From a virus, in the IMG/VR virus record IMGVR_UViG_3300020442_002678, positions 1-38,522 of that record: a stretch of DNA of 38,522 nt; one strand, written 5' to 3'. Under the pieces are notes generated by a model. It was not told the DNA's origin. It made no database searches and was given only the letters and a program-made list of their open reading frames with translations. This document shows positions 23,884 through 38,522 of this stretch, piece by piece. Position numbers and translations under genes: made by a program. The first letter of the stretch is position 1, and each line of letters begins with the position of its first letter.

Positions 23884-23887
23884 ATAC
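23879..23887 (+). promoter_or_regulatory. T4-type late promoter overlapping a stop codon
   Basis: TATAAATAC, identical to the motif at 2000-2008, is formed by the last codon and TAA stop of the giant gene. Transcription is expected near 23892. This puts the first ATG (23893) at the transcript end and favours the second in-frame ATG at 23905 for messages starting here. Confidence 0.75.
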
Positions 23888-25435: not shown

Positions 25436-26656
25436 ATGGCGCAGTCCATTGGGGATCAAGTACTTAATACTGATTTTAATCTAGTAGCATTTGATGTTAA
25501 CAAGGTTTTTGGAGACAAATATCCAACAGCTCTTGTAACAGATGCTAACAGAGGTGCTACTCATAAATTTGGTTGGGGTGCAATCAATGTTGATGATAAT
25601 ATTGCCAATGGCGTAATAATTACAGCAGAAAGATTACAAGAACTAGTAACAAGAGCAAATATAAGTATTGACCATACCACAGTGAATGATCATGTACTTG
25701 TGTTTATTGTACCAGCAAATAGAACAACCATAGCCGCAGGCACACCTATTAGAGCAGAAGATCTTAACCTAGTAAGATCCAAATTTGATAATATATTAGC
25801 AAACAATGTCCACGCAACTGTAGACCCAACTAATGCAAGTGCATTTGTTGCCAATAGTGCAGGATATGGCAGAACTACAGTATGGGATTACCAACTCAAT
25901 GGTGAACATAAGTGGTTATGGAATTCATATAATGATGCAAGATATTTTTTTAACGGAGGCGGACAGCTAAGAGCTAGCTTAAACATGACCGGTGGTAGCA
26001 CAGCAGGTTACTATAACTGGAGTGATGTTATTAATGAAATGGGTGTCTTAAATTTTACTTTTGACAATGTATTTCAAAGTGCGGCAACAACAAGTGGTAC
26101 CAGCGAAGGAAAAGGTTTTTATGATTTGACTGAATACTACGGAGACGGCAGTGACGCCGGAAGTGCTGACGAAGGATTGCTGTTTACTTCAAGCGGAGTA
26201 ACACTTGGTAAACGTGGTGGAGGCTACGGATATGGTTATGGCTATGGTTACGGATATGGCTATGGTTACGGATATGGACAACAATTATACGGCTATATCA
26301 CAGGAAAAGGTAATTACCCAGACTGGGCTGATCCAGCCAAAAAAAGCGGTTACGGATATGGATACGGTTACGGTTACGGATACAGTGGCATTTATGTAAG
26401 TGCTTATAGCTTGTATTCAACCTATCAATCATTGAAGTTTAGACTATACGGAAAATACACAGACAACGGAGCAGGTGTACAATTTAAGATGGTTTTAGAT
26501 GATACAAGTCATGCAAACTTCATTGACGGAAGCATTACACCAACAATAAGCTATCTAATGCCTGATACACTTACAATAGGTACAACCAGCTTTGACGTAA
26601 CACCAGCACCAACATTCAGTATTATAGACGACTTTACAAGTCCAAATGATAGTTAA
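25436..26656 (+). CDS. Probable tail fibre tip/adhesin with Gly-Tyr repeats
   Basis: This 406-aa protein is the last structural gene before the modification operon. The N-terminal ~240 residues form a globular region (DVNKVFGDKYPTA near the start, a DYQLNGEHKWLWNSYNDARYF-type segment around 150-175). Residues 264-281 are nine consecutive Tyr-Gly pairs and residues 305-316 are six Gly-Tyr pairs, separated by a 23-residue linker with PDWADPAKK. The C-terminal ~90 residues are strand-rich. Gly-rich repeats in distal fibre proteins of T4-like phages (for example S16 gp38) form receptor-binding loops, so a host-recognition role is plausible but inferred. ATG follows the upstream stop without a gap, with GGGGGC as a weak ribosome site. 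Confidence 0.7.
   Translation: MAQSIGDQVLNTDFNLVAFDVNKVFGDKYPTALVTDANRGATHKFGWGAINVDDNIANGVIITAERLQELVTRANISIDHTTVNDHVLVFIVPANRTTIAAGTPIRAEDLNLVRSKFDNILANNVHATVDPTNASAFVANSAGYGRTTVWDYQLNGEHKWLWNSYNDARYFFNGGGQLRASLNMTGGSTAGYYNWSDVINEMGVLNFTFDNVFQSAATTSGTSEGKGFYDLTEYYGDGSDAGSADEGLLFTSSGVTLGKRGGGYGYGYGYGYGYGYGYGYGQQLYGYITGKGNYPDWADPAKKSGYGYGYGYGYGYSGIYVSAYSLYSTYQSLKFRLYGKYTDNGAGVQFKMVLDDTSHANFIDGSITPTISYLMPDTLTIGTTSFDVTPAPTFSIIDDFTSPNDS
26225..26383 (+). repeat. Two Gly-Tyr dipeptide repeat blocks
   Basis: (YG)9 is encoded at 26225-26278 and (GY)6 at about 26348-26383. Tyr codons alternate between TAT and TAC and Gly codons between GGT, GGC and GGA, so the DNA repeats only loosely (an 18-base unit recurs twice in the first block). 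Codon mixing implies the dipeptide pattern is kept by selection on protein. Confidence 0.9.
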
Positions 26657-26663
26657 AAAACTG

Positions 26664-26693
26664 TTGACAACCCACACATAAATAAGTTATAGT
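26664..26693 (+). promoter_or_regulatory. Composite promoter: sigma70 (TTGACA-18-TATAGT) with embedded late-type motif
   Basis: TTGACA (26664-26669) and TATAGT (26688-26693; 5/6 to consensus) are 18 bases apart, and within the spacer lies CATAAATAA (26677-26685), a one-mismatch T4 late core. The predicted starts are near 26700 (sigma70) and 26690 (late), both upstream of AGGAGA at 26707-26712 and the ATG at 26721. It is the only visible promoter for the following ~12 kb operon. Confidence 0.65.
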
Positions 26694-26720
26694 AGTACAT
26701 AATTATAGGAGAAACTCAGT

Positions 26721-27068
26721 ATGGACGAGAGACTCGAAAAAGCACTAGACTTTGCGAATTATCGAATAACATTAGGCAATCAACAACGTACACTTAAACA
26801 ACGTATTCGTGTTTTACAAACTGTACATTACAATAAGGGTGTGTTTTTTGCAGACTCACAAACTATTAGTTTTGTAAAAGCACTAATCGATTGTGATAAA
26901 AAAGAAAGCGTAATTATTGATTCCAAAGAAAATCCAATAGTAATTGATGACCTAAAGGATTTTTTAGATACACTGCTTAGTGCTTACAACGAATCAATGA
27001 ATGAATACAAAGTTCAATCAGACAAAATTAAAAAGTCGAGAAACATCAAAAGTTTGATGGATTGGTGA
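26721..27068 (+). CDS. Conserved phage protein of unknown function
   Basis: This 115-aa protein is the first gene of the right-hand operon. It starts with an LEKALDFANYR segment and contains TLKQRIRVLQ, then FVKALID, IVIDDLKDFLDTLLSAYNESMNEY and a C-terminal KKSRNIKSL. I recognise this arrangement from small hypothetical proteins of marine T4-like phages; no function is established that I know of. It is mostly helical, acidic in the middle and basic at the end, with no cysteines beyond one. The start has a strong AGGAGA site behind the composite promoter. Its leader resembles that of the nucleotidyltransferase gene (both have TATAGGAGA). Confidence 0.72.
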   Translation: MDERLEKALDFANYRITLGNQQRTLKQRIRVLQTVHYNKGVFFADSQTISFVKALIDCDKKESVIIDSKENPIVIDDLKDFLDTLLSAYNESMNEYKVQSDKIKKSRNIKSLMDW

Positions 27069-27071
27069 TTT

Positions 27072-27989
27072 ATGTCTGAGAAAAAAGGTAACGGCATTTG
27101 CATGTTCGTTTACAATAACGAACAGCTGGATTATACTAAATTTAGTATTATTGCGGCTTTATATGCAAAGAATCATATGAAACAAATTCCTGTAACATTG
27201 ATTACAGATGAAGGTACACAAGGTTGGATAGAACAATCAGTTGATGAAAAACTATTGAACCGTGCTATAGACAATATTGTTATTGATAATGTACAGCATG
27301 AAATGAATCCAAGAAGGCATATGGACAGTCCTTGGACTGAATTTAATGCTCCATTTTACAATAGTAATAAACATCAAATTTTTAATCTCACACCATATGA
27401 AAAAACATTGTTAATTGATACAGATTTTTTAATCTGTAATAATTTTTATGAGTATCTGTTTGATACAGATATATCTATAGGTATGCATAGATACGCTGAA
27501 TATTTAGGCGGCGATATACCATATCTAAATGAAGTTACACTTAATAATGCTGGTATAAATCATTGGTGGAGTACAGTAGTCTATTTTGATCGCAGTGAAG
27601 AAAGCAAACTGTTTTTTGATATTTGGGCTCACGTAAAAGATAATTGGGAATACTACAGCTTGTTATACCAATATCCAAAAGCATTGTTTAGAACAGACTT
27701 TTGTGTTAGTATTGCAAGTCATATGTTAAACGGAATGAACAATGACAACTTTGTACATGACTTTCTAGGAACACCACTTTTAAATATGGATCAACAAGAT
27801 GATCTTACAAAAGTAAATGGTATTGGTGAATTAGTTTTTCTCAAACACAACAGAGCAGAAAAGTGGAAGAATATTTTGTGTAAACACACAAATGATAACC
27901 TACATTTAATGAACAAACGTGCATTAGATAGAAATTATGCCGAACTTATAAAAGAATTTGAAGGAACGGAAATTGTCCAAGCAATCTAA
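27072..27989 (+). CDS. Glycosyltransferase, GT-A fold (GT8-like)
   Basis: This 305-aa protein has the layout of GT8-type retaining glycosyltransferases. An N-terminal strand-helix region (CMFVYNN, then SIIAALYAKN and IPVTLITDEGT) resembles a nucleotide-sugar-binding half, and a DxD metal motif sits at D116-T-D118 in TLLIDTDFLICN. Downstream are an NNAGINHWWSTVVYFDRS segment and an FRTDFCVSIASHML segment typical of acceptor and catalytic parts in related phage proteins. It lies three bases after the 115-aa gene and overlaps the next glycosyltransferase by 17 bases. The donor and acceptor are unknown. Surface glycan or virion protein glycosylation fit the setting; resemblance to T4 DNA glucosyltransferases was not seen. 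Confidence 0.78.
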   Translation: MSEKKGNGICMFVYNNEQLDYTKFSIIAALYAKNHMKQIPVTLITDEGTQGWIEQSVDEKLLNRAIDNIVIDNVQHEMNPRRHMDSPWTEFNAPFYNSNKHQIFNLTPYEKTLLIDTDFLICNNFYEYLFDTDISIGMHRYAEYLGGDIPYLNEVTLNNAGINHWWSTVVYFDRSEESKLFFDIWAHVKDNWEYYSLLYQYPKALFRTDFCVSIASHMLNGMNNDNFVHDFLGTPLLNMDQQDDLTKVNGIGELVFLKHNRAEKWKNILCKHTNDNLHLMNKRALDRNYAELIKEFEGTEIVQAI

Positions 27990-28854
27990 AGAATATCCAA
28001 AAAGAGGATTTGTTACGCTAGGTATCAATACTGACCAAGATAATATTAGATATTGTTATGGTTTGGCTTGTAGTATTAAATCATGTGATCCTAATGCTAG
28101 TGTTACATTGATAGTTGATAAGGATAAAATCGGAAATGTGCAAAGTTATTACCAAAATGTCTTTGACTACATTGTAGAATTGCCACACGGCAATAGTGCT
28201 CACAAAGATGGATTTCATGGAATGAATTTGTGGCAGATTTATCATTGTACACCTTATGAAGAAACAATCTACGTTGACTATGATACGATATTCTCAAATG
28301 TAGATGTTGATACATTATGGGATATATTATCAAATGGTGATATAAGTATTCCTTCAGACGCAATGAATTATAGAAATCTTAGAATAGATTATTCAAAGAG
28401 ATTTGAATTTGAAGTGCAGTACAGATTGCCAAAACTTTTTAATAACCTAATTTATTTTCATAAAAATAGTGTGCTAGCAGAACAATGGTTTAAAATGGCT
28501 GATCCAGTTCTTCAAAATTGGAGAGATGTTTATTCACATTTGTTTACAGATAAAAAACCAGAAACTTTTAATAAAAATATCTTAGCCAATGTAGTTACCC
28601 ATTTTTTAGATATGGAAATACAAGTCTCTACGAGATTAAACAATTTGTATGATTTACATTTAAACAGTCATGGAGTATTTTTAAATCCAGATGAGATACC
28701 TCAAAATTGGACTGATTCATTGAATTATTGGGTTACAGATGCAGGTAGAGTACAAATAGAAAACAGCGTAATCGGTGGTGGAATTATTCACTATAGTGAT
28801 GAGTTATTTTTAACAGACGAAGTGTTGGATGTCTTCAGAACCAAAGTTACTTAG
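27973..28854 (+). CDS. Glycosyltransferase, GT-A fold (GT8-like), TTG start
   Basis: This ~293-aa protein is related in layout to its upstream neighbour. It opens with a GFVTLGIN segment and a YCYGLACSIKS helix, then has a DYD metal motif at residues 102-104 (TIYVDYDTIFSN), and ends with GGGIIHYSD, similar to the His-bearing C-terminal motif of GT8 enzymes. An upstream TTG (27958) also fits the frame, but I chose the TTG at 27973 because AAGGA (27961-27965) lies seven bases ahead of it. No ATG is available before the conserved start. It overlaps both neighbours (17 and 26 bases). It may extend the same glycan as the preceding enzyme. Confidence 0.78.
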   Translation: MSKQSKEYPKRGFVTLGINTDQDNIRYCYGLACSIKSCDPNASVTLIVDKDKIGNVQSYYQNVFDYIVELPHGNSAHKDGFHGMNLWQIYHCTPYEETIYVDYDTIFSNVDVDTLWDILSNGDISIPSDAMNYRNLRIDYSKRFEFEVQYRLPKLFNNLIYFHKNSVLAEQWFKMADPVLQNWRDVYSHLFTDKKPETFNKNILANVVTHFLDMEIQVSTRLNNLYDLHLNSHGVFLNPDEIPQNWTDSLNYWVTDAGRVQIENSVIGGGIIHYSDELFLTDEVLDVFRTKVT

Positions 28855-29830
28855 AGAACTACAAAAAGAAAAGCCTAGTCATAAATGGTATGTTTACTAT
28901 GATGTAGACACAGGTGATATCGTCACGGTAACCAACAAAGAAAAAGATTTCATACATCATCCGCATCTAATTACAGACAGTGATGATGCAAGGCAAATGC
29001 TAATGGGCTTTGTTGACCCAAAAAAATATGCTATTGTAGACATCAATGGTGAACTTAAACTTGTTGAGAAATCAGCAGTAATTAGGATCAAAGAAGCTGA
29101 AAACAAACTTAGTATTGTGCCTATAAGCAAAACACAAGCAGATGTTAATATATTCTTGTACAATAATCAATGGAAGATGGAAGTAAACTTTAGTCAAGAT
29201 ACATTGTATAGAATGACAGGCAAACGTTTCTTTAGAAATGTAAGTGTTAATCCTGAATCAGGAGCATACGATCCTATTAACCTATATCTAATAAAAAACA
29301 ATGATCCTAACTTTCTAATCAAAACAATAACAATTGATCCTGCTGAATTAATCGACGAGGGATATTTGATATATGACTTAACACCTCTTAGAAGGTTGTG
29401 TAATCTAACTGAGATATCAATAATGACTAGGAAAATTTTTAGTAGTTATAGATTGCAACGTAGAGTAAACTTTACTGGAGTTGAGTATACTACTAGATAT
29501 ACCAAAAGACGTAATTTTTGTGTACCAACACCAGTTGACAACGATATTGCTTGTGACTTTACTATCCAACAAATTGATGACAAACAATTCATAAAAAGCA
29601 ATTTTGCCAACCCACAGGACGAGAAGATATATAAAGATATAGGAATTTATTTGACAGAACCGCGTAATCCTAATAGATTAGTAGGAATGCTTAATCTCCC
29701 ACTTAAAGAGATAGGATGGCAAAACACAATAGAAATTAATACTGATATTGATTTACTTACTTGCGGATTTTTATGCAAAGACGGCGCAAATTTAACCTTT
29801 GACTATGCAACCACGGAGCAATCACAATGA
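28829..29830 (+). CDS. Unknown protein of the glycosyltransferase/radical SAM operon
   Basis: I do not recognise this 333-aa protein. It starts inside the end of the second glycosyltransferase (ATG 28829, weak ribosome site) and ends in an ATGA overlap with the third. It is strand-rich, with regular alternation of hydrophobic residues, short polar turns and several basic clusters (KRFFRNVSV near 130, RLQRRVNF near 210). No metal, nucleotide-binding or membrane motifs are visible, and only four cysteines. A repeated pattern of a strand followed by a P-x-N-L-Y-L type turn suggests stacked beta domains. It could be a structural or carbohydrate-binding protein in the virion, or a non-catalytic partner of its neighbours. 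Confidence 0.6.
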   Translation: MSSEPKLLRELQKEKPSHKWYVYYDVDTGDIVTVTNKEKDFIHHPHLITDSDDARQMLMGFVDPKKYAIVDINGELKLVEKSAVIRIKEAENKLSIVPISKTQADVNIFLYNNQWKMEVNFSQDTLYRMTGKRFFRNVSVNPESGAYDPINLYLIKNNDPNFLIKTITIDPAELIDEGYLIYDLTPLRRLCNLTEISIMTRKIFSSYRLQRRVNFTGVEYTTRYTKRRNFCVPTPVDNDIACDFTIQQIDDKQFIKSNFANPQDEKIYKDIGIYLTEPRNPNRLVGMLNLPLKEIGWQNTIEINTDIDLLTCGFLCKDGANLTFDYATTEQSQ

Positions 29831-30807
29831 CAAAAGTACCCATCAACGAATTTGACATTGTATACATTAGTTACGATGAACCAAATGCAGAACAAAACTA
29901 TGCAGATCTATTAGATAAATGCCCGTGGGCAAAACGCAGTCACGGAGTATGGGGCAGTGATGCCGCACATAAAGCCGCGGCGGCAATGAGCGATACTGAT
30001 AGATTTATTACTATTGATGCAGATAACATTGTAAGAGATGATTTTTTCAATGTTGAATTAGACATGAATAAAATTAGAGAAACAGATGTGATAAGTTGGG
30101 CAGGCAAAAATGCAGTCAATGGTTTGGTATATGGAAATGGTGGAATAAAATGTTGGCCCGTGGATGTTGTCAACAGAATGCGTACACATGAAGCGGCTCC
30201 TGAAAGTGATAAAGCAAATCAAGTTGATTTTTGTTGGAGTATAAGATATGTTCAAATGAACAATGTCTATTGTGATGTAATGAACAATGGTAGTCCTCTA
30301 CAGGCATGGAGAGCAGGTTTCCGTGAAGGTGTTAAGATGGGTTTAGAAGGAGGAGATGTTGTTGATCCTAAAGACCTTAAACGTATTCATCAGGACAACT
30401 ATAGAAGATTGTTGGTATGGATGAGTATAGGAGAAGATGCTACAAATGGTTTGTGGGCAATCTACGGAGCAAGACTTGGCTGTCACATGACAAATGTAGA
30501 AAGACGCAAATGGGACTGGCGTAATGTAAGAGATTTTGATTGGCTCAGCAACTTTTTTAGAGATGAACTATTCCCTGAATTTGAAGGCGGTGATCAACTG
30601 TGCGTAAATACTGGAGTCACATGGGATTGGAATAAACTTAAAGCTAAAACTGTAGAACTAGGAGAAGACCTCAGAGGAAAACTAGATTTAGAGATAAGTG
30701 ATTTAGATTGGACTGGCAGTAGATTTTTCAAAAGAGTTTACAAAAATCCTCATAGACTAGGAGCAATGGTCAGAGAGGGCGAAGTGGATGATACCATCGC
30801 AGACTAA
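29827..30807 (+). CDS. Glycosyltransferase-like protein (GT2-like, ISYDEPNAE type)
   Basis: This 326-aa protein begins FDIVYISYDEPNAEQNYADLL, a signature I associate with glycosyltransferase-like proteins in marine T4-like phages. A DAD metal motif at D64-A-D66 (RFITIDADNIV) follows an AHKAAAAM helix, consistent with a GT-A fold. An NGLVYGNGGIKCWP segment near residues 98-112 resembles the acceptor loop. The C-terminal 130 residues are rich in Trp and Arg and may bind substrate. The start is in an ATGA overlap with GGAG in front, and the end overlaps the first radical SAM gene by 20 bases. Donor and acceptor are unknown. Confidence 0.72.
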   Translation: MTKVPINEFDIVYISYDEPNAEQNYADLLDKCPWAKRSHGVWGSDAAHKAAAAMSDTDRFITIDADNIVRDDFFNVELDMNKIRETDVISWAGKNAVNGLVYGNGGIKCWPVDVVNRMRTHEAAPESDKANQVDFCWSIRYVQMNNVYCDVMNNGSPLQAWRAGFREGVKMGLEGGDVVDPKDLKRIHQDNYRRLLVWMSIGEDATNGLWAIYGARLGCHMTNVERRKWDWRNVRDFDWLSNFFRDELFPEFEGGDQLCVNTGVTWDWNKLKAKTVELGEDLRGKLDLEISDLDWTGSRFFKRVYKNPHRLGAMVREGEVDDTIAD

Positions 30808-31912
30808 AACTTGCAAGCTAGCCTCAAATGGCTATGATCAAAGATCAAAGGGTGCTTGTTGTTTTATTAAAAATGGTTGGGACAAATTCCCTAGTCCTGG
30901 TACTGTTAAAGGATATTTAAATTCAGCATTTATAAAAGAAGTTAGACATGCACTTGCCAATGGTGAAGAACATAGTGCATGTGAAAAATGCTGGCAAGAC
31001 GAAGCAAACGGTAAAAAAAGTAAAAGAATACATGCTGATGTTAATTTAGATTCACAACCAGACGGAGTGCTCACACAGCTTTCACTTTTTAGTGGAAACA
31101 AGTGTAATTTAGCATGTAGAACTTGTGGCGCACATAGTAGCACTGGATGGTTTAAGGAACATCAATACATACTTAAACAAACAGATAATTTTCCTGGTGT
31201 TTATGATAAAGCTAAGATCAAAAATTTTTCAAACAAAATCAATGTACCACTAGACAAACTACAATACATAGAAGTTCTTGGAGGTGAACCTTTTTACGAA
31301 ACAGAGCATTTAGAATTTTTAGAAAGAGTTTGTAGAGAAGCTGATCCTAGTAAGATTACACTTTTTTATAGCACCAATGGCACCAAAACAATAGAGCCTA
31401 GTATTGAAAAAATGTTCAACAAGTTTAAAAATATTATGATTAGTTTTAGCATAGATGCAGTAGGAAAACGTTTTGAGTATATAAGAACACTAGGCGTATG
31501 GGATCAAGTTGAAGAAACTATAGCATATTGGAAAAGTAGACCTAATGTATCTTTGAAAAACCATGCTACTATGAGTGTGTTAAATATAATGTATGCCAAC
31601 GAAGTTTGGAAATATTTTACTGATGTACATGGATTTGAGAACAATCAAATTGGTTATACATATGCAATATTTCCACCGCATTACAATTACAGTGTAATAA
31701 GCAATGCTACTAAAACTAAACACATGGATTGGATATTAAACAGTTTGTCTTTTGGACAGCATACAAAAAGTATACAAAGCTATTTTAAAAATGCAGAATA
31801 TAATGAACAAAATTTTAAGTACTTTCTTGATGCAATCAAATACACCAACGATTTTAGAAAATTGGATATACAAGATTATTTGCCGGAACTTTGCAAGGTG
31901 TTAAATTTATGA
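30788..31912 (+). CDS. Radical SAM protein 1 with N-terminal SPASM/twitch-like module
   Basis: This 374-aa protein carries the radical SAM cluster motif C106-NLA-C110-RT-C113 (CX3CX2C), which binds a [4Fe-4S] cluster and SAM to make a 5'-deoxyadenosyl radical. A GGEP motif at 165-168, a YSTNGT strand and an ISFSIDAVG strand complete the core barrel. The first 75 residues form a cysteine module (GACCFI at about 22-27, then ACEKCWQDE at about 63-71) resembling a SPASM/twitch auxiliary-cluster domain but placed before the core. The ATG lies inside the glycosyltransferase gene behind AGAGGG. Substrate unknown; SPASM relatives act on peptides and on sugars or aminoglycosides. Confidence 0.85.
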   Translation: MIPSQTKTCKLASNGYDQRSKGACCFIKNGWDKFPSPGTVKGYLNSAFIKEVRHALANGEEHSACEKCWQDEANGKKSKRIHADVNLDSQPDGVLTQLSLFSGNKCNLACRTCGAHSSTGWFKEHQYILKQTDNFPGVYDKAKIKNFSNKINVPLDKLQYIEVLGGEPFYETEHLEFLERVCREADPSKITLFYSTNGTKTIEPSIEKMFNKFKNIMISFSIDAVGKRFEYIRTLGVWDQVEETIAYWKSRPNVSLKNHATMSVLNIMYANEVWKYFTDVHGFENNQIGYTYAIFPPHYNYSVISNATKTKHMDWILNSLSFGQHTKSIQSYFKNAEYNEQNFKYFLDAIKYTNDFRKLDIQDYLPELCKVLNL

Positions 31913-32883
31913 GTTACTGCAAATTATTCAAACATGGACTAACTATTGACCCAGACGGCAGTGTATATCCTTGTTGTGTAATGGACAAAGGTAACGGATA
32001 TCCAAAGTACTCTCTTGAAGATGATTGGCGTAGCAAACATATGGAGATGTATGAACAAAGTAAGCACGGCTGGGTTGATAGATGTCATGGGTGTAAAACT
32101 GTTGAAGAACGAGATGGCTCTAGCTATAGAACAACATATAATAAAAAATTAGAAGGTTATGAAGATTCTGATGGAATATTATTTTGGGATCTAAAAATCA
32201 ATAATACATGTAATCTTGCTTGTAGGATATGTGGAGGTCACAGTAGCAGTACTTGGGAAAAAATTGTTAAAGAAAATCCTGATATGCCTCTAGGTGTTCA
32301 TTACGGAAAACAAAATAGAAAGAAATGGCACAAGGAAGTAAAAGACCTGACCACAGAATTACATGATGCAATGGAAATAAAGTTCACAGGTGGTGAACCT
32401 ATTATGATTCCACAAGTAAGGAAAATAATAGATTACTTGATTGAAAAAGATCTTGCAAAAAATATTAACCTCGCACTGACAACAAATGGCACTTGGGATC
32501 TAAGTGCATACTACGAAAAGTTTCGCAAGTTTAAAGCGACAACGGTGACAATAAGTGCGGACGGTGTTGGACCTCTGTTCAACTATCTTAGACAAAATGC
32601 AGACTGGGAGCAAGTTTGGCCCAACATTTTAGACATGAAGAAAAATATAGAACAGATTTATATTTTATGCACACCACAAGCACTTAACAATCATCTATTA
32701 GATGATATAAGAGATTTCTTCAAACAACACGATATCCACTGTGTTTTCAATCAGCCTGTATACAGTCCAAGTTGGATGAAGCCTGAAGCATTAGATGAAC
32801 CTCGGTTACGCAAGAAGTTTATTGAACAAATGACTTTGTTAGATCAAATACATGGCACTGATTATAGAGAGTTTATGCCATGA
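31909..32883 (+). CDS. Radical SAM protein 2 with N-terminal SPASM-like module
   Basis: This 324-aa protein has CX3CX2C at C101-NLA-C105-RI-C108, GGEP at 161-164 and an LALTTNGTWD strand, as in radical SAM barrels. Its N-terminus is a textbook-looking SPASM start, TIDPDGSVYPCCVMD, followed by an iron-ligand pair RCHGCK near residue 60, again ahead of the core. I chose the ATG at 31909 over an upstream TTG (31891) because it has AAGG ten bases ahead and gives the usual ATGA overlap with the preceding stop. The protein ends in another ATGA overlap with the third radical SAM gene. Confidence 0.85.
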   Translation: MSYCKLFKHGLTIDPDGSVYPCCVMDKGNGYPKYSLEDDWRSKHMEMYEQSKHGWVDRCHGCKTVEERDGSSYRTTYNKKLEGYEDSDGILFWDLKINNTCNLACRICGGHSSSTWEKIVKENPDMPLGVHYGKQNRKKWHKEVKDLTTELHDAMEIKFTGGEPIMIPQVRKIIDYLIEKDLAKNINLALTTNGTWDLSAYYEKFRKFKATTVTISADGVGPLFNYLRQNADWEQVWPNILDMKKNIEQIYILCTPQALNNHLLDDIRDFFKQHDIHCVFNQPVYSPSWMKPEALDEPRLRKKFIEQMTLLDQIHGTDYREFMP

Positions 32884-33662
32884 CAACATTTGGAAAGCAA
32901 GCTCTAACTGACAATGAATTTGATGAATTGTATGACGACTATGTAAAATGGTTGCTAAACTACAAAGTAAACATTGATGCTACACATAGATGCATGTTAG
33001 CTTGTGCATTTTGTAGCAGGACAATTTTAGATTGGGGAATGGATCAGGTCAAAGATTATCAAAATGCTTATGGAGATCTAACAATACAAGACGCTGTAAG
33101 ATTAGGCAACACATTTAAAACACAAATGTTTTGCGGTAATATAAGTGATCCAATTTACAATCCACAGTTTTTAGAAATACTTGATGCACTAGGAGACACA
33201 ACTACAGAACGTGTACAAATACATACCAACGGTAGCCACAAAAAACAAGAATGGTGGCACCAGTTAGTTGATATTTGCAACAGCAAAAAATATTTTACAG
33301 AAATGATTTTTGGCATAGATGGCATTGATCAAAAGACTGCATTGCACAGAAAGAATCAAAAATTTGATGAAAGTTGGTATGCTATGACATACTGTAAACA
33401 AAATTTAAATCCAAAAAACAGTCTTGTTACATGGCAGTTTATACCTTTCAAATACAATCAACATGAAATCGAACAAGCCAAACAGTTGGCAAAGCAACAC
33501 AAAATAAGATTCTTGACTGTAAAAAGCGGTAGGTTTGGATACGACAATGGTCCTTTAGATCCGCCAGATGATCAAAATCTATACAGTACAAATATACAAA
33601 GCACAAGAGAATTTATTAGATATGATCAAGGCGAGGAACACACTGAGGAGGTCAAAGTATGA
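32880..33662 (+). CDS. Radical SAM protein 3 (core domain only)
   Basis: This 260-aa protein has the CX3CX2C cluster at C38-MLA-C42-AF-C45 very near its N-terminus, with no preceding SPASM-like module. GGEP is replaced by an FCGNISDPIYNP segment, followed by QIHTNGS and MIFGIDGID strands that fit the barrel. It is the shortest of the array. Its missing auxiliary module appears to be the separate 103-aa protein encoded immediately downstream, joined by an ATGA overlap with a strong GAGGAGG ribosome site, so the two are probably made in similar amounts and work as a pair. Confidence 0.83.
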   Translation: MTTFGKQALTDNEFDELYDDYVKWLLNYKVNIDATHRCMLACAFCSRTILDWGMDQVKDYQNAYGDLTIQDAVRLGNTFKTQMFCGNISDPIYNPQFLEILDALGDTTTERVQIHTNGSHKKQEWWHQLVDICNSKKYFTEMIFGIDGIDQKTALHRKNQKFDESWYAMTYCKQNLNPKNSLVTWQFIPFKYNQHEIEQAKQLAKQHKIRFLTVKSGRFGYDNGPLDPPDDQNLYSTNIQSTREFIRYDQGEEHTEEVKV

Positions 33663-33970
33663 AGAAACTTAAACCACAATGTATGCCTCATAGATTTGAT
33701 TTTAGCAAAGCTAAGGATTTAGGAAACTTTCCTAATTTTACCAGTGCTGGATTTATGATGCCTTGTTGTTGGTTAGATCATATGCCTCTCAAACAAGAAA
33801 ACTATGCTAATTTGTGGGACGAAGAACTAAACATAAAAAATGTTGATTCTATTGAAGAAATATTGTATAGTAAACAATGGAAAGAATTTTTCAAAATGTT
33901 AATGAATGACCAGGAAAAAGCACATCCTATTTGTTGGAAAAACTGTGCAGTTGATGTTGAGGATGAATGA
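33659..33970 (+). CDS. Free-standing SPASM-like cysteine protein, partner of radical SAM protein 3
   Basis: This 103-aa protein has C36-C37 in an AGFMMPCCWLD segment, a short region with VDSIEEILYSKQW that matches the linker helix of SPASM domains, and C92-x3-C96 in HPICWKNC, plus an N-terminal C8. This order (cysteine pair, an S-x-E-E-I helix, C-x(2,3)-C) parallels the N-terminal modules of the other radical SAM proteins in the operon. It therefore looks like an auxiliary iron-sulfur domain encoded on its own. Strong GAGGAGG precedes the ATG. Metal binding is inferred from cysteine layout only. Confidence 0.68.
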   Translation: MKKLKPQCMPHRFDFSKAKDLGNFPNFTSAGFMMPCCWLDHMPLKQENYANLWDEELNIKNVDSIEEILYSKQWKEFFKMLMNDQEKAHPICWKNCAVDVEDE

Positions 33971-34827
33971 TGCAAAAACTGTGGATATTTGGTGATAGTC
34001 ATGCTGATCCAAATTCTAATTACAAAGAATATAAACATATCCGTCTGCACGAATTACAAAACATCGATGAGTTTGAACATACGTCAACTATACTCAATGT
34101 TTACAGTGAAAAAACTGGACAACGTTATGATACAAATTGTTTAACTTACGAAGGATGGGCTCATTGGTTGTCCAAAGAATATGATGTAGAAAATTATGCA
34201 CAAGTTGGAATAGGCGGTGACACTTGTTTTTTACGTCTTACTAACAAAACTGATGAACATACAGACTGTAAAAATATCAAGGTGATTTTTATATTAGCTG
34301 ATATATCAGATCGTGTGCCAATGATGGGCTACGAAGCTAGTAAGCAATGGAGTTTTTTATTTCATGCATATGATAAAAAGGATTATGATAAAATTATAGG
34401 CAAATCAAATAAGACCGGTGATTGGATAGACACTTACCACAAATATCACGAGTTTGCAAAAACTTTTATGATGGATCATGTAGAAACAGATGAGTATCAA
34501 AATAGGATTAAATTATTTCTAGGTGCTTTGGATCATTATGCTGGATTTTTTAAAAGTTTTATATGTATACCGGTTAACAAATATAAGTACACCGCAACAG
34601 AATGGCACAAGCAACATACTTTTCAAAACATGGAGGTTAGATATGATCTAACTCTAGAGCCTCTAGCAAGGCAAGGTGAAATGCCAAATGAAATGTATCA
34701 AGAAGTGTTTAGAGGCAAAAAACAAGGACGCTTAAAGCCAAAAAATTTATGGCCCAATCATTTAGATACAAAACACAATCGCTATTTTTATGAGCAGATG
34801 AAAGAATGGATAGAAACAGATGGGTAG
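33970..34827 (+). CDS. SGNH/GDSL-family hydrolase or acyltransferase
   Basis: This 285-aa protein shows the SGNH blocks: WIFGDSHAD with the nucleophile S10, a GIGGDTCF segment that may supply the oxyanion Gly, a loosely conserved strand with ADISDR, and HLDTKHNRY with D266 and H269 as the DxxH acid-base pair. Such enzymes remove or transfer acyl groups on sugars, peptidoglycan or lipids. ATG 33967 is also in frame, but 33970 has AGGA six bases ahead, a better spacing. No signal peptide is present, so it would act in the cytoplasm or be carried in the virion. Placed between radical SAM genes, it probably edits the same substrate. Confidence 0.78.
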   Translation: MQKLWIFGDSHADPNSNYKEYKHIRLHELQNIDEFEHTSTILNVYSEKTGQRYDTNCLTYEGWAHWLSKEYDVENYAQVGIGGDTCFLRLTNKTDEHTDCKNIKVIFILADISDRVPMMGYEASKQWSFLFHAYDKKDYDKIIGKSNKTGDWIDTYHKYHEFAKTFMMDHVETDEYQNRIKLFLGALDHYAGFFKSFICIPVNKYKYTATEWHKQHTFQNMEVRYDLTLEPLARQGEMPNEMYQEVFRGKKQGRLKPKNLWPNHLDTKHNRYFYEQMKEWIETDG

Positions 34828-36232
34828 AAAACAATTAGAAGATGAACTAAACGAAACAAGAGACTTGCTCAATAGTATAAGTCCTAGTTTTTGTTTAGCC
34901 AAATGGTTGCAACATACATTGTATTTGCAAAATGGAATGAATCACAGTTGTCACCATCCTCCTACACACAAAATACCTGTTGAAGAAGTATTAAAAAATC
35001 CTAAAGCACTACATAATACCCAACATAAAAAAGAACGTATGAGACAGATGCTTGCTGGCGAAAGACCAAAAGAATGCGATTACTGTTGGAGAGTAGAAGA
35101 TCAAGGAGACAAGTTCTTTAGTGATAGAACTTACAAAAGTCAAACCAGCTGGGCAATGCCACACATATATGATGTTATGGAAAAAGGTGCTGACGCTGAT
35201 ATAGAACCCAGTTATTTGGAAATAAGTTTCAGCAATGTATGTAATCTAAAGTGTGCATATTGTAGTCCTGATCTCAGCAGTAAATGGATGGAAGAAATTA
35301 ATCAGTATGGAGAATATCCAACACATTTTAAACACAATAATTTAGAAGCACAGAAGGACATGGGTAGAATGCCCATTCCTAAAAAAGATCCTAATCCTTA
35401 TGTTGATGCATTTTGGAAATGGTGGCCTGAACTATATCCAAACTTACACACATTAAGACTTACAGGCGGCGAACCATTGATGAGCAAAGATTGTTGGCAA
35501 GTGCTGGAAGCAATTAAAGATAATCCAAGAGATGATTTAGTGCTTGCTATAAACACAAACTTAGATGTAGAACCTAAATTATTAGAAAGATTCATTGCAC
35601 TTGCAAAAGAGATCGGACCAAATATCAAAGAACTACAAATATTTACAAGCGGAGAAAGTACAGGAGCGGCGGCTGAGTATGCACGTTTTGGTTTAGATTA
35701 TGATAGATGGTATAAAAACTGCGATTGGGTATTAAGTGAATTGTACGGAGAATTTAAACTAGTTTTTGCATTTATGACCACAGTCAACATATTGAGCGTT
35801 GGATCATATCATCACTTTCTAAAAGACGTGATAAAATTAAGAGCTAAGTATATTAAACACAAAGACGATGGAAACGTTTTGCCTTGTATGTCTAACTTTC
35901 TTCGTTATCCAAATTTCCTAGCTATATGTAATTTAGATGATGAAACCAAAGCAATAGTGGAAAAAGATATTATAACTTTTGCAGAAAGTTATCAAGTCGG
36001 CAATACAAAGGATACAGGATTTTTATGGTTAGAAGAAATAAACCAATTGGAAAGATTGTTGGCATTTATGAATGATGACAGCATAGGTACATTAGATATG
36101 AACCGCAGTGATTTTTGGAAATATGTAGACGAGTATGATATTAGAAGAAATACAAACTTTGCAAAAACATTCCCAGAGCTAGAAACGTATTACAAAATTT
36201 GTAAAACATATGATTATCAAGGTGAGTCATGA
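34820..36232 (+). CDS. Radical SAM protein 4 (paralogue of protein 5)
   Basis: This 470-aa protein has CX3CX2C at C141-NLK-C145-AY-C148 and GGEP at 216-219 (RLTGGEPLMS). The N-terminal ~110 residues form a module with FCLAKW, an NHSCHHP segment, an HKIPVEEVLKNPKALHNT segment and ECDYCWRVED. This is a variant of the SPASM-like arrangement in which the cysteine pair is replaced by Cys-His-His. The C-terminal ~170 residues are helical and unlike the smaller proteins. It overlaps the SGNH gene by 8 bases and the next gene by 4. The close match to protein 5 indicates tandem duplication. Confidence 0.87.
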   Translation: MGRKQLEDELNETRDLLNSISPSFCLAKWLQHTLYLQNGMNHSCHHPPTHKIPVEEVLKNPKALHNTQHKKERMRQMLAGERPKECDYCWRVEDQGDKFFSDRTYKSQTSWAMPHIYDVMEKGADADIEPSYLEISFSNVCNLKCAYCSPDLSSKWMEEINQYGEYPTHFKHNNLEAQKDMGRMPIPKKDPNPYVDAFWKWWPELYPNLHTLRLTGGEPLMSKDCWQVLEAIKDNPRDDLVLAINTNLDVEPKLLERFIALAKEIGPNIKELQIFTSGESTGAAAEYARFGLDYDRWYKNCDWVLSELYGEFKLVFAFMTTVNILSVGSYHHFLKDVIKLRAKYIKHKDDGNVLPCMSNFLRYPNFLAICNLDDETKAIVEKDIITFAESYQVGNTKDTGFLWLEEINQLERLLAFMNDDSIGTLDMNRSDFWKYVDEYDIRRNTNFAKTFPELETYYKICKTYDYQGES

Positions 36233-37584
36233 AACATAAAGAACTACAAAAAGTTAAAGATCAAGTAAACAAAGTAGGTTGTGGATTTTGTGCGGCTAAG
36301 TGGTATAATAGTACTATATGGTTAAGCAATGGTAGAACTGCTAGTTGTCATCATCCAGAAGCACATTATATTCCACCCAGAGAAGTATTTAAAAATCACA
36401 AAGCAATACACAACACAGAGTTTAAAAAGCAACGTAGAAAAGAAATGCTCGAAGGTAAACGCCCTGATGAATGCACATACTGTTGGGCTGTAGAAGATGC
36501 AGACCCTGACGCAATGAGCGACAGAGTTTTCAAAAGTAGCATTTATACTCCAGAAGAAATAGAAGCAATCAAAAATATTGGTTGGGATGAAGATGTTAAT
36601 CCTAAGACACTTGAAATTAGTTTTGACAATCTGTGCAATCTAAGTTGTAGTTACTGTAATCCTGAGTTCAGTACTACTTGGGCCAATGACATAAAAACAA
36701 ATGGTATATATGAAGGCATGAAAACAGCAGGTGGCGGAGCATATCAGAATGACGGAGATCATGCTCATAGCTTTGGTCTCAAAGGACATGATGGCAACTT
36801 GTTTACCAAAGCATTCTTTAAATGGTTTGATGATGGTCTCAAAGAAGATTTACAAGAGTTAAGAGTAACTGGTGGTGAACCTACTCGTAGTCCTCACTTT
36901 TGGAAGCTGGTAGATAAATGCGAAGGTGAAAAGTTTAACTTTGCAATAAACAGTAATCTTATACTTGAAGATAAAATGATGGATAAACTGATTGATGCAA
37001 GCAAAAAGTTTCAAACATTTGATTTGTATACTAGTTGTGAAACAGCAGGCAAACATGCAGAACTAATACGACATGGATTTAAATATAACACATGGAAACG
37101 TAACCTTGTGCGTTTTGCTAAAGAAGGCAACTATAGACATATTAGTATTATGATGACAATAAGCAACCTTACGTTGTTTAGTATCACTGACTTTTTAGAT
37201 GATATGATTGATCTTAAAAGAGAATTTAGCAACAAAGCATTGTTTCATATGACATTAAACATATTGCGTTTTCCTAGTTTTCAAAGTGTTACCCTGTTAC
37301 CAGAGTATATTAAACAAGAACGAATAGCACATCTGACAGAATGGTTAGAAGCATTTGGAAGTTTCTTAACAGATAGTGAGAAAGCACATATACAAAGATT
37401 AATCACATATCTTCAAAAAATTAATAGAGCAATAGAAGATACAGATACAGTAGAAGATAAACAAGCAGACTTTGTTAAATTCTTCAGCAGTTATACCAAA
37501 CGCAGAGATATTGATATTGTAAAAACAATAGACAATGCAGGATTTACTAAATGGTGGGAGGAAATGAATGAAGCAACAGCCTAA
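36229..37584 (+). CDS. Radical SAM protein 5 (paralogue of protein 4)
   Basis: This 451-aa protein repeats the layout of its neighbour: FCAAKW, TASCHHP, HYIPPREVFKNHKAIHNT, ECTYCWAVED, then CX3CX2C at C136-NLS-C140-SY-C143, GGEP at 215-218, and a helical C-terminal region ending in TKRRDIDIVKTIDNAGF (compare DIRRNTNFAKTFPEL in protein 4). Spacing between all motifs is nearly identical in the two. It carries an extra His/Gly-rich insertion (GGGAYQNDGDHAHSFGLKG, about residues 170-188) between the cluster loop and the second strand. The ATGA overlap suggests coupled translation. Its end overlaps the next radical SAM gene by 17 bases. Confidence 0.87.
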   Translation: MKHKELQKVKDQVNKVGCGFCAAKWYNSTIWLSNGRTASCHHPEAHYIPPREVFKNHKAIHNTEFKKQRRKEMLEGKRPDECTYCWAVEDADPDAMSDRVFKSSIYTPEEIEAIKNIGWDEDVNPKTLEISFDNLCNLSCSYCNPEFSTTWANDIKTNGIYEGMKTAGGGAYQNDGDHAHSFGLKGHDGNLFTKAFFKWFDDGLKEDLQELRVTGGEPTRSPHFWKLVDKCEGEKFNFAINSNLILEDKMMDKLIDASKKFQTFDLYTSCETAGKHAELIRHGFKYNTWKRNLVRFAKEGNYRHISIMMTISNLTLFSITDFLDDMIDLKREFSNKALFHMTLNILRFPSFQSVTLLPEYIKQERIAHLTEWLEAFGSFLTDSEKAHIQRLITYLQKINRAIEDTDTVEDKQADFVKFFSSYTKRRDIDIVKTIDNAGFTKWWEEMNEATA

Positions 37585-38522
37585 CAAAGACCCAAGCAAA
37601 AGTTTTTGTATTATTCCTTGGATACATCTAAATACTTGGCCCAACGGTAGTGTGTTTCAATGTTGTATTACTGACTACAGAAATGTAATTGGTAATCTTA
37701 AAAATAATACGCTTGAAGAAGTATTCAACAATGACTATATGCGAGAACTTAGAAAAGATTTACTAGAAGGAAAATTTCCTGAAAGCTGTGTTAAATGCTA
37801 TGAACAAGAAAACATGGGCATTACAAGTTTTAGGCAGAATGCTAATCGTCAGTTCAATCATCATATTGCAGACATAGAAAACAAAACAACAGAAGAAGGA
37901 CATGTAGATGATGTAAAGTTACACTATTGGGACTTTAGATTTAGTAATTTGTGCAACATGAAATGCCGTATGTGTGGCGGACATCTAAGCAGTCTTTGGA
38001 ATGCAGATGAATTAGCTGTATATGGATCACCTAGCGAATCAGCACCTGGCGGTGTTGTAAACACAAGAGATGTAAGCAAAGAAAACCTTTATGACTTGTT
38101 GGAAAATCATATTGATCATGTAGAAGAGGTATACTTTGCTGGCGGCGAACCACTTATAATGGATGAACACTATTATATCCTAGAAAAACTAATTGAAAAG
38201 AAACGCTTTGATGTAAGAATAAGATACAATACAAATTTACTCAAACTGAAATTTAAAAAATGGGACAACATTGAACTATGGAAAAACTTTGAGCATGTAA
38301 ATGTACTTGCAAGTTTAGATGCTATGGATTCTCGAGGAGAGTACATTCGTAAAGGTACAGTTTGGAAAACAATTGAGCAAAATGTAGATAGAATTATGCA
38401 GGCTAAAGCAGAACAAAATGTTATGTTTAGTATAAGTCCTACAATTAATTTGTTTAATGTTAAAACCACACCTGAGTTTGTAGACTGGTTGTTCAGTAAA
38501 GGTTTGCCAATGCATAATATTC
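37568..38522 (+). CDS. Radical SAM protein 6 with N-terminal SPASM-like module, partial
   Basis: The frame runs off the right edge after 318 codons. The N-terminus is the clearest SPASM-like module of the set: WPNGSVFQCCITD, then VIGNLKNNTLEEVFN, an ELRKDLLEG helix and SCVKCYEQE. It is followed by the radical SAM cluster C129-NMK-C133-RM-C136, GGEP at 192-195 (YFAGGEPLIM), an RYNTN strand and a VLASLDAMD strand. The ATG at 37568 lies 17 bases inside the end of protein 5, with GGGAGGA just upstream. The C-terminus is missing. Confidence 0.85.
   Translation, partial: MKQQPNKDPSKSFCIIPWIHLNTWPNGSVFQCCITDYRNVIGNLKNNTLEEVFNNDYMRELRKDLLEGKFPESCVKCYEQENMGITSFRQNANRQFNHHIADIENKTTEEGHVDDVKLHYWDFRFSNLCNMKCRMCGGHLSSLWNADELAVYGSPSESAPGGVVNTRDVSKENLYDLLENHIDHVEEVYFAGGEPLIMDEHYYILEKLIEKKRFDVRIRYNTNLLKLKFKKWDNIELWKNFEHVNVLASLDAMDSRGEYIRKGTVWKTIEQNVDRIMQAKAEQNVMFSISPTINLFNVKTTPEFVDWLFSKGLPMHNI

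Follow-up and report, generated by a model that had tools for sequence, protein, structure and literature searches.

The window analysed here is the whole of the viral record IMGVR_UViG_3300020442_002678 in IMG/VR, 38,522 bases long, the right end of which carries an operon with three glycosyltransferase (GT) genes, GTa, GTb and GTc, followed by six genes for radical S-adenosylmethionine (rSAM) enzymes, R1 to R6. The explanation that we favour, with a probability of about 0.45, is that this phage-borne operon builds a surface glycan, probably of the host envelope, and tailors it by radical chemistry. The six rSAM matches all lie within 30788-38522 and none was found elsewhere in the window. 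Each of the six open reading frames (ORFs) contains CX3CX2C and five contain GGEP, as a first-pass annotation of this DNA had reported; CGNIS stands at the place of GGEP in the ORF that begins at 32880. The same annotation described the six as consecutive, which was correct as to number but not as to strict succession, as ORFs for a free SPASM protein (33659-33970) and an SGNH-like protein (33967-34827) separate the third from the fourth. Its description of overlapping genes running without a gap from 27072 to the window end was accurate: the overlaps are 4-32 bases, the sole intergenic gap after 26721 is 3 bases, and the sole real gap is that at 26657-26720. The window end cuts both the array and R6. 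A near-identical contig (L008, 98%) runs on to ten rSAM ORFs, the number also counted independently in another near-identical record, and beyond them holds sulfotransferase-like (by sequence only), ribulose-phosphate-epimerase and nucleotidyltransferase-like genes.

Membership of the radical SAM superfamily was judged by CX3CX2C together with a PF04055 score above 29.5 bits. R1, R2, R3, R5 and R6 score 29.8-49.9 bits, and R4 scores 26.8 bits alone and 29.5 bits with the neighbouring stretches of its frame. All but R3 also exceed (206-350 bits) the 170-bit cut-off of the NCBIfam model NF033640 ("twitch domain-containing radical SAM", N_Twi_rSAM), which describes enzymes with an N-terminal auxiliary Fe-S domain, and these five reach no other NCBIfam cut-off among the matches listed. 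R3 has neither an NF033640 match nor N-terminal cysteines. Before the radical SAM motif, the five N-twitch enzymes have the same arrangement of N-terminal cysteines (C, C or CC, CX2C). C25, C44, C86, C89, C141, C145 and C148 are invariant in 51 R4-type sequences; such cysteines would fit one auxiliary Fe-S cluster ahead of the core. Their N-terminal position differs from the C-terminal SPASM/twitch arrangement of the maturases of ribosomally synthesized and post-translationally modified peptides (RiPPs). The paralogues of the array are only 21-32% identical and most group first with viral or bacterial homologues, which rules out recent tandem duplication. It had been proposed that the enzymes be checked against already characterised subgroups of known substrate. 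They belong to a subfamily that has a name, for which no function, reaction or substrate was found in the literature, and the outcome that would have refuted the pathway proposal did not arise.

To judge from their sequences and conserved pairing, R3 and the free SPASM protein are probably the two chains of a single enzyme. The free SPASM protein predicted by the first-pass annotation is real (PF13186, 22.0 bits against a cut-off of 21.5). The pair is retained in the diverged contig L010, and pairs of a short rSAM protein with a cysteine-rich partner also occur in arrays of Bdellovibrionota; for these two reasons a split caused by sequencing error is unlikely. The free SPASM protein shares only a 12-residue match with the C-terminal SPASM domain of a 389-residue rSAM protein. 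Of the marks of the SGNH family, a profile match and four sequence blocks, the hydrolase named in the first-pass annotation shows only the GDS motif (FGDSHAD); no SGNH match worth naming was found for this ORF in Pfam, NCBIfam or PHROG.

All three glycosyltransferase assignments were upheld. GTa and GTb were judged as GT8 enzymes by sequence relation to that family and DxD, the relation being weaker for GTa, which has an invariant DxD; the profiles of both lead to glycogenin (E-values in Table 1). GTc has no family match and no meaningful Protein Data Bank match by sequence profile. A confident model nevertheless gives it a GT-A fold: residues 3-153 match B4GALNT1 with Z 10.6, although the scores of nucleotidyltransferases are almost equal, and the fold matches include the protein S-glycosyltransferases SunS and ThuS. 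Around the arrays in other contigs are genes for GT7 proteins, UDPG/GDP-mannose dehydrogenase, epimerases, dTDP sugar isomerase and ribulose-phosphate epimerase, as well as carbamoyl-, cytidylyl- and methyltransferases. Control stretches of the same records hold mostly replication, nuclease and other genes, although sugar genes are not absent from them. One viral neighbour protein (L021:3852-5270) has a GT7 galactosyltransferase domain fused to a concanavalin-like (Laminin_G_3) domain.

The association of these genes is conserved. Synteny was counted for 50 non-redundant viral R4 proteins with at least five upstream genes: GTa, GTb and GTc lie upstream of R4 in 26 of them, always in the identical order, GTc directly adjoins R4 in 21, and the gene after R4 encodes another rSAM protein in 29. 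The core order in marine viral contigs is a fibre gene, a gene for a 115-residue protein, GTa, GTb, a variable gene, GTc and R4, often with R5 and R6. The 115-residue gene heads the unit and is usually preceded by the fibre/adhesin gene. This order persists between distant contigs in which GTa and GTb are only about 25-30% identical. In the window R1, R2, R3, the SPASM gene and the SGNH-like gene are inserted between GTc and R4, which follow each other directly in L013, L118, L133, L139 and others. The conserved order and the recurrent sugar-nucleotide enzymes support the earlier proposal of a multi-gene pathway tied to glycosyl transfer. Nor are the rSAM genes unlinked singletons in related phages, the outcome that the first-pass annotation had named as damaging to its case: up to 21 NF033640 matches occur in one 518-kb record and at least 10 in about a dozen of 36 records. 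Arrays of this type are common among the viral contigs of IMG/VR, where R4 alone yielded 376 confirmed stretches. Almost no isolate of the phage collection carries one, and no match to GTc or to the 115-residue protein was found among isolate phages.

Of all sigma70-type sites in a 15-kb stretch, the highest-scoring one falls in the gap at 26657-26720. The equivalent gap in relatives scores 11-12 out of 12 in 15 of 21 cases, compared with 26 of 278 other gaps (Fisher 3e-10) and 8 of 1072 gene starts without a gap. A conserved sigma70-type site in front of the operon argues that it is probably transcribed separately and early, by host RNA polymerase, and among the three targets proposed in the first-pass annotation (a fibre glycan, a host surface glycan or a protein) this promoter evidence leans towards the host surface. 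The T4-late-like motif TATAAATA occurs just twice in the window, at 2000-2007 and 23879-23886, a count below chance expectation; both sites are just upstream of ORFs, and one of them precedes the fibre gene group. As the start of the operon this motif was rejected, since only 4 of 24 relatives have it there, in place of the sigma70-type site.

If the operon does serve a host-surface glycan, host RNA polymerase would transcribe it early, and the glycosyltransferases would use nucleotide sugars of the host to put together a short glycan. The sugar, or its nucleotide- or lipid-linked precursor, would be altered by the N-twitch enzymes in a series of radical reactions: deoxygenation, deamination, epimerisation or other C-H tailoring. 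Side cassettes may decorate the glycan further, the SGNH hydrolase in the window and sulfotransferase-like proteins and carbamoyl-, methyl- and cytidylyltransferases in relatives. In the least certain step, the product would reach the host envelope, change the receptor during infection and block superinfection.

Several observations weigh against this explanation. The three glycosyltransferases are missing upstream of R4 at about half of the non-redundant viral loci, and by Pfam alone the excess of sugar genes around the arrays is small, suggestive but not strong. No gene of the window operon was recognised as encoding a flippase, polymerase or exporter. The R4 model (pLDDT 95) does not choose between a sugar and a peptide substrate, because the scores of DesII (Z 13.8), SkfB (13.4), anSME (12.9) and BlsE (12.9) tie within 1 Z; structural families missing from the fold-match lists were not counted as excluded. 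The matches to DesII, a TDP-sugar deaminase, and to BlsE, which acts on a sugar nucleoside, do count in favour of a glycan. The early timing is uncertain because TATAAATA precedes the operon in the four relatives mentioned above and the window itself carries CATAAATA there. Finally, a link to glycans is not evident for some bacterial arrays, whose neighbours are housekeeping genes or Asp/Asn hydroxylases.

The main rival, which ranks second and is doubtful, is that the virion is modified: the glycosyltransferases would glycosylate the upstream fibre/adhesin and the rSAM enzymes would act further on the residues or glycan of that protein, so that host recognition is changed or the fibre protected. 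A fibre gene lies directly upstream across relatives, and the fibre of the window and of several relatives contains repeated Tyr-Gly units of the form (GY)n or (GYGG)n, which gives weight to the resemblance of GTb to glycogenin, an enzyme that glucosylates its own tyrosine; SunS and ThuS among the fold matches of GTc point the same way. The repeats are, however, missing in most relatives that bear the operon, fibre genes are variable whereas R4 is strongly conserved, and the sigma70-type promoter sets the operon apart from the fibre transcription unit. It is decidedly unlikely that the rSAM enzymes make a RiPP-like peptide or other small molecule, with the glycosyltransferases linked to them only because both occupy one hypervariable region for cargo genes. 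In favour of such a pathway are matches by fold to SkfB, SuiB, EpeE and ChlB, and the Asp/Asn hydroxylases and 2-oxoglutarate oxygenases near arrays in phages and bacteria. With gaps of at most 3 bases between 26721 and 38522, the window operon leaves no room for a separate precursor gene, although one could lie elsewhere, and the one larger gap examined in a 98% identical contig holds a 66-residue ORF without cysteine. The glycosyltransferase order before R4 is moreover kept at 25-30% glycosyltransferase identity, more than a shared cargo site predicts.

Two further explanations carry little weight. General Fe-S or low-oxygen metabolic genes that aid the host cell have been proposed for other rSAM-rich phages (PMC5332604, PMC2853527); here this is very improbable, as the enzymes form one auxiliary-cluster subfamily, in conserved order beside glycosyltransferases, and not a set of cofactor-biosynthesis families. 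A viperin-like system making chain-terminating nucleotides would account for weak pVip profile matches (18-39 bits) and for viperin among the fold matches, but its probability is close to negligible: viperin lacks an N-terminal auxiliary domain, the alignment spans the shared core only, and scores of about 32 bits or less against the 180-bit cut-off of the NCBIfam viperin model (NF038283) rule out viperin identity.

R4 homologues were found at 58 bacterial loci, nearly all in metagenome-assembled genomes (MAGs) of Bdellovibrionota, and the ten bacterial genomes searched have 2-20 N-twitch rSAM proteins each. In favour of a glycan role, some Bdellovibrionota R4 loci hold genes for GT group 1 proteins, ABC-2 permease, carbamoyltransferase and DegT aminotransferase; ABC ATPases were also counted at bacterial loci as one cluster, which may combine ABC proteins that are not related. 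A tree of 185 proteins, many deep branches of which are weakly supported, has groups that contain viral as well as bacterial sequences, and this mixing suggests exchange. The Bdellovibrionota contigs L203-L209 have N-twitch arrays of their own, some with pairs of short rSAM and cysteine-rich proteins and Asp/Asn hydroxylases. Three contigs binned as Verrucomicrobia, Neomarinimicrobiota and Rhodobacteraceae (L194, L196 and L200) carry the phage glycosyltransferase family, two of them with all three glycosyltransferases beside rSAM genes; by their gene content they are probably phage DNA within MAG bins. Nothing was found in the literature on rSAM enzymes with polysaccharide in Bdellovibrio. Bdellovibrionota also prey on other bacteria. 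A wider proposal is unlikely to hold in full: that an early operon, widespread in jumbo-type phages of the sea, produces a glycan of a new kind, that N-twitch enzymes act serially on carbohydrate, which is not an established substrate class for their subfamily, that one enzyme works as separate radical and auxiliary-cluster subunits, and that the toolbox has been exchanged with Bdellovibrionota.

The features of the locus are listed in Table 1. The repeats of the fibre gene vary among close relatives, with (GY)10 in a 98% identical contig and (GY)4 to (GY)9 or (GYGG)4 in others. PHROG gave no match for the 115-residue protein or for the variable gene. The window probably derives from a large T4-like myovirus, because its baseplate wedge protein (phrog_10646) is nearest to those of the jumbo phages Phosso, Atu_ph07, PA5oct and GAP32; this wedge family is present in 17 of the 19 records tested.

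Table 1. Features of the operon and its upstream flank, in window coordinates.
Feature	Position	Strand	Evidence
Fibre/adhesin-like protein, repeats (GY)9 and (GY)6; final structural gene ahead of the operon	25436..26656	+	ORF, repeats; same place in relatives
Sigma70-type promoter TTGACA-18-TATAGT, putative operon start	26664..26693	+	11/12, best of 71 matches in 15 kb
115-residue protein, first operon gene	26721..27068	+	Place conserved in relatives
GTa, GT8-like glycosyltransferase with DxD	27072..27989	+	Glycogenin profile E 0.09; invariant D116, D118
GTb, GT8-like glycosyltransferase	27958..28854	+	Glycogenin profile E 7e-7
Variable gene between GTb and GTc	28829..29830	+	Conserved position, variable sequence
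GTc, GT-A fold glycosyltransferase, invariant D64 and D66	29827..30807	+	Alignment of 30 sequences; model pLDDT 90
R1, N-twitch radical SAM, GGEP	30788..31912	+	NF033640 242 bits
R2, N-twitch radical SAM, GGEP	31891..32883	+	NF033640 206 bits
R3, radical SAM core lacking both auxiliary domain and GGEP	32880..33662	+	PF04055 29.8 bits
Free SPASM protein, 103 residues, probable auxiliary-cluster partner of R3	33659..33970	+	PF13186 22.0 bits
SGNH-like hydrolase, variable cassette	33967..34827	+	FGDSHAD motif only; absent at this place in L010
R4, N-twitch radical SAM, operon core gene	34820..36232	+	NF033640 336 bits; model pLDDT 95
R5, N-twitch radical SAM, R4 paralogue (32%)	36229..37584	+	NF033640 292 bits
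R6, N-twitch radical SAM, 318 of about 429 residues	37568..38522	+	NF033640 350 bits; full length in L008

The first-pass annotation contrasted an array of this size with the single radical SAM genes that occur in phages, but arrays of this size are not unprecedented there: phage genomes holding 11-12 rSAM genes appeared in print in 2010 and 2017, followed in 2020 by rSAM cassettes close to glycosyltransferases. The Campylobacter phages CP220 and CPt10 were reported to have 11 and 12 rSAM proteins (PMC2853527), and our recount for CP220 is 11. In CP220, a T4-like isolate, five nearby rSAM genes with two adjacent nucleotide-diphospho-sugar transferase genes resemble the linkage in the window. 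It differs in that its best NF033640 score is 31 bits and none passes, in having an amidinotransferase and in lacking a GTc profile match. Because its enzymes belong to other subfamilies, rSAM-glycosyltransferase clusters probably arose more than once in phages. The CP220 cluster (L222:20690-29273, corresponding to CP220 70690-79273) is followed directly by the two annotated transferases, an arrangement that the available part of PMC2853527 does not discuss. The T4-like ocean genome TARA_ERS488813_N000010 has a comparable number of rSAM genes (12), interpreted as Fe-S cluster biology, with no operon or subfamily described in the available part of that paper (PMC5332604). The setting is shared with the pelagimyophages, whose host-recognition cluster combines GT8-type transferases with rSAM cassettes that come and go near fibre genes; the GTa-GTb-GTc-R4-R5-R6 order, the promoter and arrays of 10-21 are not described in the available part of that report (PMC7029224). 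The baseplate of the window is nearest to phages of the Phosso/Atu_ph07/PA5oct type, which may set it apart from the pelagimyophage backbone. Tasman Sea viruses are likewise enriched in rSAM and glycosyltransferase genes (PMC7150976).

Among isolates, the 255-kb Vibrio phage K566 (L143) encodes five NF033640-type proteins, two of them over the cut-off, and a cultured system for N-twitch enzymes may therefore exist, although K566 has no GTc match and its proteins are 24-26% identical. R1, R2, R4, R5 and R6 have the N-terminal cysteine pattern of NF033640 at large; the window differs from that family generally in its arrays with glycosyltransferases and in the R3/SPASM pair, which falls outside the model. 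DesII and BlsE are the nearest sugar-acting folds to R4, a likeness that does not show the reactions to be alike. Should the operon indeed tailor a surface glycan, NF033640 would gain a first function, and it would become clear how large phages of the ocean change the surface of the cells that they infect. New within the literature searched are the NF033640 assignment, the GTa-GTb-GTc-R4-R5-R6 unit and its promoter, arrays of up to 21, the split pair and the link to Bdellovibrionota. Rather than an unspecific list of rSAM genes, the conserved core (the 115-residue gene, GTa to GTc and R4 to R6) with its own predicted promoter forms a defined unit suited to cloning and assay.

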